In this document: positions 6,086 to 9,924 of the stretch, in pieces
Position numbering within the stretch: the stretch's first letter is position 1
Layout: each line of letters starts with the position of its first letter
Source: Actinomycetota bacterium
GTDB taxonomy: Bacteria; Actinomycetota; Acidimicrobiia; Acidimicrobiales; AC-9
Length of the DNA: 34,290 bases
NCBI GenBank assembly: GCA_005888295.1
Contig: VAWP01000046.1
Coordinates: 19,945-54,234 of the forward strand
Direction: 5' to 3'
Made by a program: the position numbers and the translations under genes
Notes under the pieces: model-generated
Seen by the model: only the letters and a program-made list of their open reading frames with translations
What the model was told of the DNA's origin: nothing
Database searches by the model: none

Positions 6086-6637
6086 CTACGGCCGGACGAT
6101 CTCGTCGACGATCCCATAGCCGAGGCCGGTCTCGGCCGTGAGGTGCCGCCCGAGCCGCAGGTCCGCCTCGACGTGCTCGAAGGGCTGGCCGATCGCCTCC
6201 GCCAGGCGTCGGACGAAGTCCCCCACGCGGGTCTCCAGCTCGGTGGCCCGCCGGTGCAGATCGGTCGCCGGGCCCGCGAGGTCGGCCGTCGGCTCGCGGA
6301 GGTGGATCCGTCCCAGGGTCCCGATGCGACGGTGGCTGCAGACAGCGAGCACGCCCGCCATGGTCCCGCCCACCGTGCTGGCGACCGTCGCGGTGACGTG
6401 CACACCGAGCACGTCGATGGTGTCGATGAGGGCGAAGGCGACGTCGAGCGAGTCGGAATCGGCATTCAGCCGCAGCTCGACCGGATCGTCGCCGAGGGCG
6501 TCCAGGGTCATCATCGTGGCCGCCGCGTCGCTCGCCCGCTGATGGTCGATCCTGCCGCTGAGCAGGATGATCCTCCGGTCGAGCAGCGCCCGCTCGGCCG
6601 ACGGCCGAGGGTACCCGGACGGGAAGCTCCCCGTCAT
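6086..6637 (-). CDS. ClpP-like protein lacking the catalytic triad (pseudoprotease)
   Basis: Protein of 183 residues that aligns along its length with the ClpP encoded at 7097, down to the shared ending (YGIVDEIV versus YGIVDDII). None of the active-site residues is kept. The SPGG oxyanion loop reads ADSD. The Ser position (GMGMSAAAM) reads TVGGTMAGV, with Thr or Gly in place of Ser. The His position (IMIHQ) reads IHLRE. The Asp position (RDFYMTAEE) reads LGRHLTAET. It should fold like ClpP but not cleave peptides. Inactive ClpP relatives (for example ClpR) join mixed rings with active ClpP, so a structural or regulatory subunit is plausible (inference). Its ATG overlaps the XRE stop (ATGA), so the two are translationally coupled. 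Confidence 0.86.
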   Translation of the reverse strand: MTGSFPSGYPRPSAERALLDRRIILLSGRIDHQRASDAAATMMTLDALGDDPVELRLNADSDSLDVAFALIDTIDVLGVHVTATVASTVGGTMAGVLAVCSHRRIGTLGRIHLREPTADLAGPATDLHRRATELETRVGDFVRRLAEAIGQPFEHVEADLRLGRHLTAETGLGYGIVDEIVRP

Positions 6638-6954
6638 CGCACGTCGTCCCCGCGGGCGGGAGGACCCAGCCGGGTCGCCAGCCCGGCTTCCGGGTCCTCG
6701 GGCCCACCCAGTCGCCAGTCGATGACCTGGTCGACGGCGGCGGCGTAGCGCTCGAGGCTCGAGAGGCGCACGTCGCCCTGGCCCGACTCGAGCCGCGCCA
6801 CGGCCGACTGGGACGTGCCCATGCGGGCCGCCACCTCGGTCTGGGAGAGGCCGACCGCCACGCGCCGGGCGACCAAGGCTTCGGCCAACGCCTGTCGGCG
6901 CCGGGCCACGTCGCCGAAGCCGGGCAGGTAGCGATCGTGCCTGCGCTCACCCAT
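6634..6954 (-). CDS. XRE-family helix-turn-helix regulator
   Basis: Protein of 106 residues with a central HTH (about 22-75): VGLSQTEVAARMGTSQSAVA followed by RLESGQGDVRLSSLERYAAAV, typical of Cro/CI-type DNA-binding domains. The rest is short, with no effector domain. It is co-transcribed with the dead ClpP paralogue (4-base ATGA overlap) and divergent from active clpP. In Streptomyces the regulator PopR sits beside clpP3-clpP4 and activates them, so a comparable role is plausible by context only. ATG 6954 was chosen because a 20-codon reading frame on the apparent leaderless promoter ends across it. In-frame GTG 7005 would give 123 residues. Confidence 0.82.
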   Translation of the reverse strand: MGERRHDRYLPGFGDVARRRQALAEALVARRVAVGLSQTEVAARMGTSQSAVARLESGQGDVRLSSLERYAAAVDQVIDWRLGGPEDPEAGLATRLGPPARGDDVR

Positions 6955-7009
6955 CGGTCGAGAACCGGCCGCCCGGCCACGGGGACACGACCGGACGACG
7001 TCCACTCAT
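6947..7009 (-). CDS. Possible 20-codon leader ORF upstream of the XRE gene
   Basis: ATG 7009 lies 7 bases after TATCAT (7017-7022), the best -10 match in this divergent region. Its frame closes at TGA 6947-6949, overlapping the XRE start ATGGGTGA. It could deliver terminating ribosomes to the XRE start, which has no Shine-Dalgarno sequence. The sequence is Arg/Pro/Gly-rich with no recognisable motif. It may be chance. Confidence 0.3.
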   Translation of the reverse strand: MSGRRPVVSPWPGGRFSTDG

Positions 7010-7011
7010 GT

Positions 7012-7030
7012 CAACGATGATAACTCGTTG
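7012..7030. promoter_or_regulatory. Dyad CAACGA-N7-TCGTTG, candidate operator between XRE/pseudo-clpP and clpP
   Basis: A perfect 6-base inverted repeat with a 7-base spacer, 19 bases in all, covers the minus-strand -10 (TATCAT, 7017-7022) and abuts the plus-strand promoter region. Position and symmetry fit a binding site for a dimeric HTH regulator such as the adjacent XRE protein (inference). Confidence 0.45.
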
Positions 7031-7054
7031 GTGATATCGCATGTATGGTATAGA
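7028..7054 (+). promoter_or_regulatory. Probable clpP promoter (TTGGTG ... TATGGT/TATAGA)
   Basis: TTGGTG at 7028 and TATAGA at 7049 are 15 bases apart; TATGGT at 7044 is an alternative -10. Either gives a leader of about 40 bases, and clpP has a good GAGG ribosome-binding site. Confidence 0.4.
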
Positions 7055-7096
7055 CGCCGGCGGCCAGGCGCTGGCACACGACGGAAGCGAGGTGCC

Positions 7097-7726
7097 ATGG
7101 CGTCCTATCACTCCCTCATCCCTACGGTGCTCGACAGTGGGCCGCGCGGCGACCGGGCCTTCGACATCTACTCGCTGCTCCTGCGCGAACGGATCGTCTT
7201 CCTCGGTCAGGAGGTCGACGATCAGATCGCCAACCTCCTCATCGCCGAGATTCTGTACCTCGACGCCGAGAACCCGGACAAGGACATCTACCTGTACATC
7301 AACTCGCCCGGCGGCATCGCCTACTCGGGGATGGCCATCTACGACGTCATGCAGCACGTCCACTGCGACGTGGCCACCATCTGCGTCGGCATGGGCATGT
7401 CGGCGGCGGCCATGATCCTCGCAGGCGGAGCGGCGGGGAAGCGCTCGGCCCTGCCGAACTCCAAGATCATGATCCACCAGGGCTCTGCCGGAGCCAGAGG
7501 TGCGCCGCGCGACATGGAGATACAGCTCCAGGAGGCGCTGGCGACCACCCGGCGCATGGCCCAGATCCTCGCCCACCACACCCGTCAGCCGATCGAGCGG
7601 GTCGAACGCGACATCGACCGCGACTTCTACATGACGGCGGAGGAAGCTCTCGCCTACGGCATCGTCGACGACATCATCGCCCCCCGCCGGGGCGTGGCCG
7701 CGCTGGCGGCCGCCGCCGCGTCGTGA
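7097..7726 (+). CDS. clpP: ATP-dependent Clp protease proteolytic subunit ClpP (active)
   Basis: Serine peptidase that forms heptameric rings and degrades proteins fed by ClpX- or ClpC-type unfoldases. The protein has 209 residues, the usual length. NSPGG supplies the oxyanion hole. The triad is intact: S102 in GMGMSAAAM, H127 in KIMIHQG and D176 in DRDFYM. There is no obvious long propeptide. ATG 7097 follows GAGGTGCC, a good ribosome-binding site; an in-frame extension to GTG 7028 overlaps the promoter. The last codons overlap the next gene (GTGA). No clpX, clpC or tig is adjacent, which is unusual for a housekeeping clpP and fits an accessory copy. Its partner is probably the dead paralogue across the divergent promoter (inference). 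Confidence 0.96.
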   Translation: MASYHSLIPTVLDSGPRGDRAFDIYSLLLRERIVFLGQEVDDQIANLLIAEILYLDAENPDKDIYLYINSPGGIAYSGMAIYDVMQHVHCDVATICVGMGMSAAAMILAGGAAGKRSALPNSKIMIHQGSAGARGAPRDMEIQLQEALATTRRMAQILAHHTRQPIERVERDIDRDFYMTAEEALAYGIVDDIIAPRRGVAALAAAAAS

Positions 7727-8022
7727 CCGCGTCGCGGGCCCGGTGCGACGTCTGCGGGGACATCGTGGGCTCCAGCCACCCGTGGGACGTGCGGACGTGC
7801 TCGTGCGGGCGGCTCACGGTGAGCGGCGGCCCGAAGCACCGCCGGGTCCAGTGGAGCGCCGAGCCGGGGGCGGGGTGGACCGACCTCGGCGACGAGCCCG
7901 AGGATGAGCCCGACGACGAGCTCGCGAACGACGAGCTCGGAGACGACGGTGTCGCGGACGAGGACGTTGGCGACGACCGCGCTGCCGATGACGGCGGGAG
8001 CCGGCTCGGCGCCCGCCGATAG
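7723..8022 (+). CDS. Small zinc-ribbon protein (DUF7695-like) with long acidic tail
   Basis: Protein of 99 residues. The N-terminal half has CDVCGD (C8, C11), SSHPWDVRTCSCG (C26, C28) and SGGPKHRRVQW. This matches what I recall of DUF7695, whose members read roughly CxxCGDxxxSxHxHDxxxCxCGxxxxDGG. The second half (about 58-90) is almost all Asp/Glu with Gly, Ala and Leu, and very likely disordered. Its GTG shares four bases (GTGA) with the clpP stop, so it is translationally coupled to active ClpP. A metal-bound head with a negatively charged tail, made with a protease subunit, could be an adaptor or inhibitor; this is inference. It ends 6 bases before the FtsH stop. Confidence 0.75.
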   Translation: MTASRARCDVCGDIVGSSHPWDVRTCSCGRLTVSGGPKHRRVQWSAEPGAGWTDLGDEPEDEPDDELANDELGDDGVADEDVGDDRAADDGGSRLGARR

Positions 8023-8028
8023 GGCTCG

Positions 8029-9924
8029 TCAGCCGGTGCCGGCTCGAGCTGGCTGACGCCCCGGTGTCGCGGCGGCGGCCTCGACGTCGCGCCCGTCGAT
8101 CGTCTCTCGTTCGAGGAGCAGGTCGACCACCCGGTCGAGCGCAGCGCGGTGCTCGGTCAGCAGCCGGGTCGCCCGCTGCTCGGCCTCGCGCAGGAGCCGG
8201 GCCACCTCCTCGTCGATCAGCTGTTGGGTGCCCTCGGCGTACGGCCGGCCTCGACCGTCGGCGCCGAGGTAGTTGGGAGTCGAAGAAGAGAACCCGACCG
8301 GGCCCAGCCGATCGCTCATGCCGAAGTCCCGGATCATCCGGGTCGCCAGCTCGGTGGCGCCGGCGAGGTCGTTGCTCGCCCCACTCGAGGCCTCACCCAG
8401 CACGAGGAGCTCGCCAGCCCGGCCACCGAGGCGGACGGCCAGCGAATCGAGCAGGTAGCTCTCGGGATAGAGGTGGCGCTCGTCGATGGGGAGCTGCTCG
8501 GTGACCCCGAGGGCCATGCCCGACGGAAGGATCGTGACCTTGGCGACGGGGTCGGCATGGGGGGACAACACGGCCACCAGGGCGTGCCCGCCCTCGTGCA
8601 CGGCGACGGAGCGCTTCTCGTCGGGGAGCAGAGCGTTGGACGCGTCGCGGCGGCCGAGCAGGATTCGATCACGGGCCTCGGAGAAGTCGGCGCCGGCGAC
8701 CACCTCCCGGTCCGCCCGCACGGCGACGATGGCGGCCTCGTTGACCAGATTGGCGAGGTCCGCACCGGAGAACCCGGGTGTCAGCCCGGCGACCACGCCG
8801 AGGTCGACATCGGGCGCCAGCCTCCGCCCCTTGGTATGGACGGCCAGGATCTTGGCCCGCTCGGATCGGTTGGGAAGGGGGATCTCGACGGTCCGGTCGA
8901 AGCGGCCCGGGCGCAGCAGGGCGGGGTCGAGGGTCTCGGGGCGGTTGGTGGCGGCCATGACGACCACCCCGGTGGCCGGGTCGAACCCGTCCATCTCGGC
9001 GAGGAGCTGGTTCAGGGTCTGCTCCCGCTCGTCGTTGGACGCGAACAGCGCCGCGCCACGCTTGCCGCCGATGGCGTCGATCTCGTCGATGAAGATGATC
9101 GACGGCGCTCGCTTGCGAGCGGTGGCGAACAGGTCCCGGACCCGGGACGCCCCCACGCCCACGAACAGCTCGACAAAGCTCGAGCCGGTGATGGCGAAGA
9201 ACGGCACCTCGGCCTCGCCCGCCACCGCCCGGGCCAGCAGTGTCTTGCCCGTGCCCGGAGGGCCGACCATGAGCACCCCCCGGGGCCCGATGGCGCCGGC
9301 CCGGGAGTAGCGCTCGGGGTGGGAGAGGAAGTCGACGACCTCGCTCACCTCCTGCTTGACCCCTTCGTAGCCGGCCACGTCGGCGAACCGGGTCGGAGGT
9401 CGCTCCTCGTCGTAGAGCTTGGCGCGCGAGCTGCCGATCCCCATGATCCCGCCCGCCGCCCGGGCCGAGCGCCGGCCCAACAGCAGGAACAGGCCGAGGA
9501 ACAGGACGAAGGGCAGGAAGGACAGGATCGTGGGCAGCACCGAGCTGCTGGGGCCCACACCCGTGATGGCCACGCCGTGGGCCTGGAGGATGGGCGCCAG
9601 CTGGTTGTTGCCGAGGGCCAGCGGTATCTGGGAGCTGTAGTGCTGGCCGGCACTCCCCTTCAACTGGCCGGTGACCTTGCCGTTGGGGTCGATGGTGGCC
9701 GTGGACACCTGGTTGGCGTTGACCTTGTCGACGAAGGACGAGTAGTTGAGGTTGGTGACCGGTGGGGCGCTGCCCATCGCCGGTATGAACAGCAGGCCGA
9801 CGGTGGCGACGATGCCGACCACCAGGAACCAGACCCGCCAGCGAGGAGGCGGTGGTGGCACCGGCCGCTTCGGCGGGTCCGACGGCGGACCGGGCTTCGG
9901 TGGGTTGGAGTGATGCTGGATCAC
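8029..9924 (-). CDS. ftsH: ATP-dependent zinc metalloprotease FtsH
   Basis: Membrane-anchored AAA+ protease that extracts and degrades membrane and soluble proteins. The protein has 631 residues. A Pro-rich cytosolic start leads to TM1 (about 31-50), an external domain and TM2 (about 131-149). The AAA module has Walker A GPPGTGKT (221-228), Walker B IFIDE (277-281) and the second region of homology near ATNRPETLDPALLRPGRFDR. The peptidase has the zinc motif HEGGH (443-447), where most FtsH read HEAGH; the fixed His and Glu are kept. GTG 9924 follows a G-rich stretch. A TAGGTT -10 lies about 32 bases upstream. It is shorter at the C-terminus than many main actinobacterial FtsH, so it may be a second copy. 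Divergent from the GH13 gene. Confidence 0.96.
   Translation of the reverse strand: MIQHHSNPPKPGPPSDPPKRPVPPPPPRWRVWFLVVGIVATVGLLFIPAMGSAPPVTNLNYSSFVDKVNANQVSTATIDPNGKVTGQLKGSAGQHYSSQIPLALGNNQLAPILQAHGVAITGVGPSSSVLPTILSFLPFVLFLGLFLLLGRRSARAAGGIMGIGSSRAKLYDEERPPTRFADVAGYEGVKQEVSEVVDFLSHPERYSRAGAIGPRGVLMVGPPGTGKTLLARAVAGEAEVPFFAITGSSFVELFVGVGASRVRDLFATARKRAPSIIFIDEIDAIGGKRGAALFASNDEREQTLNQLLAEMDGFDPATGVVVMAATNRPETLDPALLRPGRFDRTVEIPLPNRSERAKILAVHTKGRRLAPDVDLGVVAGLTPGFSGADLANLVNEAAIVAVRADREVVAGADFSEARDRILLGRRDASNALLPDEKRSVAVHEGGHALVAVLSPHADPVAKVTILPSGMALGVTEQLPIDERHLYPESYLLDSLAVRLGGRAGELLVLGEASSGASNDLAGATELATRMIRDFGMSDRLGPVGFSSSTPNYLGADGRGRPYAEGTQQLIDEEVARLLREAEQRATRLLTEHRAALDRVVDLLLERETIDGRDVEAAAATPGRQPARAGTG

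Follow-up and report, generated by a model that had tools for sequence, protein, structure and literature searches.

We report here an accessory Clp protease module in a 34,290-nucleotide stretch of contig VAWP01000046.1 from the Acidimicrobiales genome GCA_005888295.1; this whole stretch is hereafter called the window. The module combines the gene of an active ClpP with that of a look-alike devoid of the catalytic triad (hereafter, dead ClpP) and with the gene of its own regulator, with a predicted regulator-binding site between them, a combination found in many soil and acid-loving relatives. On balance, we lean towards interpreting it as an accessory Clp module of Acidimicrobiales that regulates its own expression and in which dead ClpP would act as a non-catalytic subunit that limits or redirects the activity of the active ClpP. 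Comparative sequence analysis supports the ClpP fold of the dead protein, the gene overlap, the operator, the co-occurrence of the two ClpPs and the selection acting on dead ClpP. In the window, the following features were delineated:

7097-7726, plus strand: accessory active ClpP of 209 amino acids with S102, H127 and D176 and the clade signature GMGMSAAAM (Pfam CLP_protease, 4.5e-73)
6086-6637, minus strand: dead ClpP paralogue (pseudo-ClpP) of 183 amino acids, with Gly, Arg and Gly at the triad positions and no axial N-terminal motif (PF00574, 5.5e-17)
6634-6954, minus strand: XRE-family regulator (HTH_3, 3.6e-10), in a frame open to a GTG at 7005
7035-7052: palindrome TATCGCATGTATGGTATA, a putative operator in the promoter region between the divergent genes, departing from the family consensus TATCTCANNNNTGAGATA at 3 of 14 positions (family scan)
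7021-7038: conceivably a second, weaker operator-like site, TAACTCGTTGGTGATATC, 4 positions off and overlapping the first; a guess, seen in one genus only
7723-8022, plus strand: DUF7695 zinc-ribbon protein with an acidic tail, overlapping the clpP stop (PF24749, 1.2e-11)

The active clpP gene diverges from the pair formed by the XRE and dead clpP genes, and within this pair the stop codon of the XRE gene overlaps the start codon of dead clpP (ATGA). The same overlap is present in 54 of 60 cases, namely the window and 59 of the conserved loci described below (L082, which has both genes, was dropped for want of a usable start), and the two genes are predicted to be translationally coupled. The coordinates and frames of the module genes, as well as the operonic association of the regulator with dead ClpP, had been proposed in a previous sequence-only reading of the window and were borne out. 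That reading started the XRE gene at GTG 7005; because of the conservation of the N-terminus and the ATG codon itself, we favor ATG 6954. The host genome, a 3.72-Mb assembly of 198 contigs with 91.6% completeness, contains four ClpP matches, of which the two outside the module are located on other contigs and have higher Pfam scores, in agreement with the accessory status assigned to the module from the start. All three host proteins with a ClpB_D2-small domain are likewise encoded on other contigs, consistent with the earlier statement that neither clpX nor clpC is adjacent; one of these, a 441-amino-acid frame situated some 1 kb away from a housekeeping clpP, is probably ClpX.

The dead protein matches PF00574 with 62.7 bits against a cut-off of 20.2 and has no other Pfam match up to E = 1. 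Alignment to Escherichia coli ClpP places Gly, Arg and Gly at positions 97, 122 and 171, where the active protein has Ser, His and Asp, and shows the oxyanion loop changed from NSPGG to NADSD. The sequence-only reading had claimed an intact triad (S102/H127/D176) in the active protein and the loss of both triad and oxyanion loop in its paralogue. Both triad claims stand, with no Ser, His or Asp found at these positions of the 6086-6637 protein; the loss of the loop holds for the window but not for the family, in which Gly at E. coli position 68 is kept in 51 of 67 aligned dead sequences. With the loop partly retained in most family members, its loss is a feature of the window's lineage. Among the same 67 sequences (at least one genome, that of L014 and L068, is counted twice, although no two rows are identical), the position of the nucleophile, Ser97, is occupied by Gly in 66 and by Thr in one, and never by Ser. 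Position 122 is more variable (Arg 23, Cys 11, Ser 10, Ala 7, Val 5, Phe 4, Thr 3, and Gly, Gln, Ile and Glu once each) and is never His; position 171 is Gly in 53, Ala in 9, Arg in 3, and Asp and Thr in one each. In the 81 active sequences, by comparison, Ser and His are universal and Asp is present in 80, with a gap in the remaining one.

The surface on which Clp ATPases dock differs as well. Tyr62 of E. coli ClpP, which is involved in ATPase docking, is conserved in 8 of the 67 dead sequences vs all 81 active ones; Tyr60 is absent from every dead sequence, and the Phe82 position is occupied by Leu, Val, Ala, Ile or Met in 62 of them. (Of the pocket residues, Y60, Y62 and F82 are those given in the literature, as Y74, Y76 and F96.) The docking pocket of the active proteins appears to be altered too, given that Phe82 is replaced by His in 71 of 81 and Tyr60 is kept in only 5. 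At the N-terminus, dead ClpPs have between 6 and 48 unconserved residues ahead of the aligned core in 59 locus sequences (the window sequence, which was placed manually, is not comparable in this respect), with no common motif discernible by eye.

An AlphaFold2 model of dead ClpP, built with the 67 family sequences, has a mean predicted local distance difference test score (pLDDT) of 94.2 and a predicted template modeling (TM) score of 0.86. The handle helix is complete in this monomer model; residues 1-13 form neither helix nor strand, and the first ten residues have a mean pLDDT of 61. The best Foldseek matches are Mycobacterium smegmatis ClpP1 and Thermus thermophilus ClpP (6pbu and 6hwn), with TM-scores by query of 0.82-0.90; for 6hwn and 6hwm, the scores are 0.88-0.91. 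On the strength of the model and these matches, we regard the dead protein as a ClpP subunit without the axial N-terminus: it retains the profile and the fold of ClpP and lacks the triad, the axial N-terminal motif and, in most cases, the docking aromatics.

Dead ClpP is evidently under purifying selection. The ratio of nonsynonymous to synonymous substitution rates (dN/dS) is 0.11-0.41 in the 8 informative of 9 gene pairs, three of which fall within one trio; the same 8 pairs yield 0.06-0.12 for active ClpP and 0.02-0.22 for the XRE protein. Branch lengths show that dead ClpP evolves several times faster than its active partner. The fixation of Gly at the nucleophile position, together with these dN/dS values, indicates that dead ClpP is maintained, albeit faster-evolving. 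We reject a decaying pseudogene on the basis of dN/dS, and a chance open reading frame (ORF) or frame artefact on that of the Pfam match, fold, selection and conservation combined.

Searching GTDB species genomes for the active clade yielded 109 confirmed stretches, of which 80 were kept as loci. In 60 of these, dead clpP and the XRE gene diverge from the active gene; one has dead clpP only, three, all at contig edges, have the XRE gene only, and 16 have neither, including L112, where a partial XRE gene and an operator lie at a contig edge. The XRE gene thus accompanies dead clpP in 60 of 61 loci. The sequence-only reading had suggested looking for the four-gene arrangement in other genomes; three of the genes are conserved together in relatives, and the zinc-ribbon gene is present in 8 of the 80 loci. 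Neither of the two outcomes named there as refuting it, a triad in the 6086-6637 protein or a neighborhood not conserved in relatives, was observed. In a sample of 148 genomes of the order, 16 had both dead and active ClpP, one had the dead gene only, none had the active gene only, and neither was found in 131 (active clade at 391 bits or more, next match 270); the association is strong (Fisher p = 1.6e-20, not corrected for relatedness).

The dead family stands out in 7 of 395 genomes sampled from the class (at least 196 bits, next match 137) and in one of 396 from the phylum, the host genome itself (209 bits, next match 149). The class and phylum samples overlap the order sample, and the sampled genomes, numbered with G, overlap the 80 loci, numbered with L (for example, L066 is from G049 and L068 from G122), so that the counts are not independent. 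One of the 7 genomes, G294, belongs to another order, and its contig ends just past the dead gene. The numbers of genomes with dead ClpP are lower bounds, because the fastest-evolving members (L122, L123, L129 and L132) score 127-141 bits with profile A1, in or near the range of ordinary ClpPs. Additional members elsewhere in the phylum were not found among the 14 next-best loci fetched, all of which keep Ser, His and Asp. The dead family is patchy and centered on Acidimicrobiales; some of the metagenome-assembled genomes with the module clade carry the depositor labels Dormibacterota, Chloroflexi or Acidobacteria.

For phylogenetic analysis, 128 of 201 sequences were used (26 active ClpPs of XRE-type loci, 15 other active ones, 34 dead, 52 housekeeping and E. 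coli ClpP). The 34 dead sequences form one clade (100/99), and the 41 active ones form another (100/100), located inside ordinary ClpPs. The exact position of the dead clade is uncertain due to its long branches. Many of the active ClpPs of the clade (L063-L140) end in small residues, for example VAS, AAS or LAS, a little like Clp degrons.

The promoter shared by the two transcription units contains the palindrome TATCTCA-N4-TGAGATA. The best sites in 64 intergenic regions have 0, 1, 2, 3, 4 and 5 mismatches in 12, 14, 14, 15, 4 and 5 cases, respectively, so that a site with at most 4 mismatches is present in 59 of 64 regions vs 1.8% of mononucleotide shuffles (20 per region; best site with 3 mismatches in 0.1% and with 4 in 1.7%). 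No site with 2 or fewer mismatches occurs elsewhere in the 604 kb of the same loci outside the intergenic regions. Ten more loci from G-numbered genomes, several of which are the genomes of named loci, have sites with 1-4 mismatches. The window's site at 7035-7052 is part of a block that is conserved in two congeners; the sites of these congeners differ from the consensus at 4 positions. Among 14 whole genomes, picked mostly for good operators, 12 contain exactly one site with at most 1 mismatch and two contain none; of the 12 single sites, 11 were assigned to the module promoter by sequence comparison and that of G045 by its coordinates. As a control, the reversed pattern was found once in these genomes, in G850. 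The self-regulation proposed in the sequence-only reading is therefore supported at the level of sequence, as most of the genomes contain the promoter operator just once. We considered a wider regulon and set it aside, there being no second site with at most 1 mismatch in the 14 genomes (the genome-wide search was confined to such close matches and did not include the host genome). In two loci, a 2080-bp insertion occupies the center of an otherwise perfect operator (L085:3861-5966 and L088:3331-5436); it has imperfect inverted ends, GGCAACTATCCC and GGTAAGTATCCC, is flanked by a repeated 8 bp, CACATTTG, and contains one frame that looks transposase-like by eye. It is a natural operator disruption.

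Proteins of solved structure related to the XRE profile are of the HigA/434/HipB type, with HigA3 the best match (40 bits). Like the HipB and HigA autoregulators, the XRE regulator is a small protein, and it apparently combines an XRE fold with a predicted palindromic operator in its own promoter. The span of this operator equals that of HipB, TATCC-N8-GGATA (PMC3376134), with TATCT-N8-AGATA here. Unlike the HipB and HigA toxin-antitoxin systems, the window has dead and active ClpP as the neighbors, and the overlapping partner is dead ClpP. No toxin gene was recognized in the module of the window, and no toxin model was searched in the 80 loci. A regulatory degron at the C-terminus of the XRE protein was discounted, as no common ending was seen by eye.

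To our knowledge, ClpPs without a triad have been described chiefly in the photosynthetic line and in apicoplasts, in the form of ClpR. The family described here appears to be distinct: dead ClpP of the window reaches only 35 bits (cut-off, 263) with PRK12552, which we take to be the cyanobacterial ClpR model, and its best NCBIfam match is PRK12553 (74 bits). Furthermore, unlike ClpR, dead clpP sits behind an XRE gene and diverges from the active gene, with an operator between. The two share the absence of the catalytic triad from a ClpP homologue; ClpR of cyanobacteria, plastids and apicoplasts works beside active ClpP (PMC7966870).

The sequence-only reading had likened the module to the Streptomyces clpP3clpP4-PopR system, in which PopR, a ClgR paralogue, activates a bicistronic operon (PMC9765437). 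The likeness extends to accessory ClpPs with their own regulator beside housekeeping ClpPs. It fails in gene order, the two clpP genes being divergently oriented both here and in the 60 loci that have dead and active ClpP. One member has completely lost the triad, and the regulator looks HigA/HipB-like by its solved relatives (the comparison with ClpP3, ClpP4 and PopR is with published descriptions). Streptomyces ClpP1 and ClpP2 both keep canonical triads (PMC9765437), and catalysis and ATPase docking are split between these subunits (PMC9765437, PMC12607617). A search of the open-access literature, to the exclusion of subscription papers, found no description of the dead family; a study of proteostasis in Acidimicrobiia counts clpP copies and, in the excerpt considered, makes no mention of dead ones (PMC10490939).

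Taken as a regulatory circuit, the module would operate as follows. The XRE protein would bind the single palindrome between the two divergent promoters, as either repressor or activator, and would thereby control the amounts of active ClpP, in one direction, and of dead ClpP together with the XRE protein itself, in the other. Dead ClpP would most likely assemble with active ClpP, serving neither catalysis nor docking, whether the rings are mixed or it forms an odd second ring; once assembled, it might limit or redirect the activity of its partner, with a Clp ATPase presumably docking on the active subunits. The XRE-dead pair would then be an exchangeable control cassette for the active clade, and dead ClpP a tuning subunit.

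Several observations weigh against this reading. The dead gene is not always accompanied by its partners: in L068, dead clpP and the operator are present without an XRE match, and genome G075 has a dead ClpP (L161:190-1280, triad positions Gly/Arg/Gly, downstream of a DUF4234 gene) without the active clade in the genome or an XRE gene nearby in the ORF list. The handle, normally the contact between rings, is the least conserved of the three regions of dead ClpP compared (mean entropy 2.26, vs 1.68 for the core and 2.00 for the C-terminal part), and the Asp and Arg residues just before the catalytic Asp position are mostly lost in the dead sequences. Finally, in exactly 11 of the 80 loci (L115, L121, L126, L127, L128, L130, L131, L133, L135, L136 and L140), a divergent AHSA1-domain gene starts 90-145 bases upstream of the start of the active ClpP match to the hidden Markov model, followed by a helix-turn-helix (HTH) gene in ten (the contig ends in the eleventh, L126); the Pfam analysis covered L127 and L128. 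The 33 ClpP matches listed for these 11 genomes comprise 28 with Ser/His/Asp, 5 with Ser/His/Asn and none that is dead. Because all of them keep Ser and His, the active ClpP can apparently do without a dead partner.

With the dead profile, 15 genomes lacking the module at the locus gave no full-length match above 120 bits, compared with 225-246 bits in three module genomes, although in metagenome-assembled genomes assembly gaps could hide genes. The five ClpP matches fetched from the genomes of L134, L137 and L139, which are labeled Dormibacterota or Chloroflexi, all have Ser/His/Asp. The genome of L142 (G846) is not a true case of absence, because one of its contigs ends with a fragment of dead clpP accompanied by an XRE gene scoring 107.8 bits (L249:1-2500). 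The active clade gene of this genome is on a different contig, and its alignment begins only at query residue 33; G846 has a split or rearranged module. The promoters of the AHSA1 loci contain, by eye, TTGCAC-type repeats in place of the XRE operator. The Ser/His/Asn ClpPs of these genomes (L227, L231, L232, L234 and L237) have Asn at the position of the catalytic Asp, as does, according to the literature, Listeria ClpP1.

In the tree, the AHSA1-type active ClpPs form one nested group (100/95) beside the XRE-type ones, which suggests, as far as the sequences go, the replacement of one control cassette by another. Tentatively, we extend this to a stronger proposition, namely, that the regulator and the pseudo-protease may constitute a plug-in cassette, with one operator per genome and one accessory ClpP, in which dead ClpP is not a structural ring and which, in a sister lineage, an unrelated AHSA1 and HTH pair opposite the same ClpP has supplanted. 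If so, a single gene pair would couple transcriptional control with post-translational control of a self-compartmentalized protease by its dead paralogue.

The foremost alternative, put forward in the sequence-only reading, is an asymmetric 7+7 barrel with an ATPase-docking active homo-heptamer stacked on a dead homo-heptamer. Such a division of labor has a precedent in Streptomyces ClpP1P2, and it is compatible with a dead protein that has an intact monomer fold with a full handle helix but lacks the axial motif and most of the docking aromatics, next to an active one that keeps Tyr62. In active ClpP, however, the handle is nearly invariant (mean entropy 0.51, vs 0.58 for the core and 1.13 for the C-terminal part), unlike the poorly conserved handle of the dead protein; most dead sequences have lost the Asp and Arg that precede the catalytic Asp position; and the active clade exists without the dead partner. 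Given the weak conservation of the dead handle and the eleven loci in which AHSA1 and HTH genes replace the XRE-dead pair, we consider a strict 7+7 barrel doubtful.

The association with an antitoxin-type regulator invites another explanation, in which dead ClpP is an inhibitor or antitoxin-like sink that holds active protomers out of working rings until the XRE protein is relieved. The dead gene is indeed co-directional with, and in 54 of 60 cases overlaps, the gene of a HigA3-like XRE protein; the operator has HipB geometry; and Gly at the catalytic Ser position in 66 of 67 sequences speaks for a maintained loss of activity. The active ClpPs of the sister lineage nevertheless live without any dead ClpP, and we consider this explanation unlikely.

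It is less likely still that dead ClpP acts on the XRE protein rather than on active ClpP, as a ClpP-shaped sensor or co-regulator. The near-constant company of the two genes (60 of 61 loci) would fit, as would the occupation of the same slot by an AHSA1-type protein in eleven loci, with an HTH gene behind in ten, but the tight co-occurrence of the dead gene with the active clade, the retention of the whole ClpP fold, and the dead genes of L068 and G075, for which no XRE gene was found, all point the other way. The faster evolution of dead ClpP would suit a decaying, functionless duplicate, an option made highly improbable by the dN/dS values, the conserved fold, the unity of the clade over many families and the gene overlap.

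As a separately placed bacterial family of triad-less ClpPs with its own regulator and operator, dead ClpP offers a compact three-gene system for exploring the effects of dead subunits on a Clp protease. Natural contrasts are provided by lineages with and without the dead partner and by the two genomes with the insertion inside the operator.

The zinc-ribbon ORF overlaps the stop of active clpP by 4 bp, as first noted from the sequence, and encodes a DUF7695 protein, the only one found in the host genome. A DUF7695 gene follows the active gene in the same 8 of 80 loci and in the two congeners of the window (L006 and L007). This narrow distribution rules out the zinc ribbon as a core part of the module and argues against the dedicated adaptor envisaged in the sequence-only reading; the protein is perhaps accessory to the module, and an adaptor role is a guess. 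Its tail is strongly acidic in the window, and eight other members are less acidic by eye.

A query with FtsH gave no match reaching 100 bits in any of the 80 loci; in the window, an ftsH gene (TIGR01241, 687 bits; 8029-9924, minus strand) is located directly downstream of the module. Elsewhere in the phylum, genome G583 (L150, 878-3237) contains tandem clpP frames with both triads intact, which score 143 and 125 bits to the dead profile and possibly represent another divergent ClpP pair.

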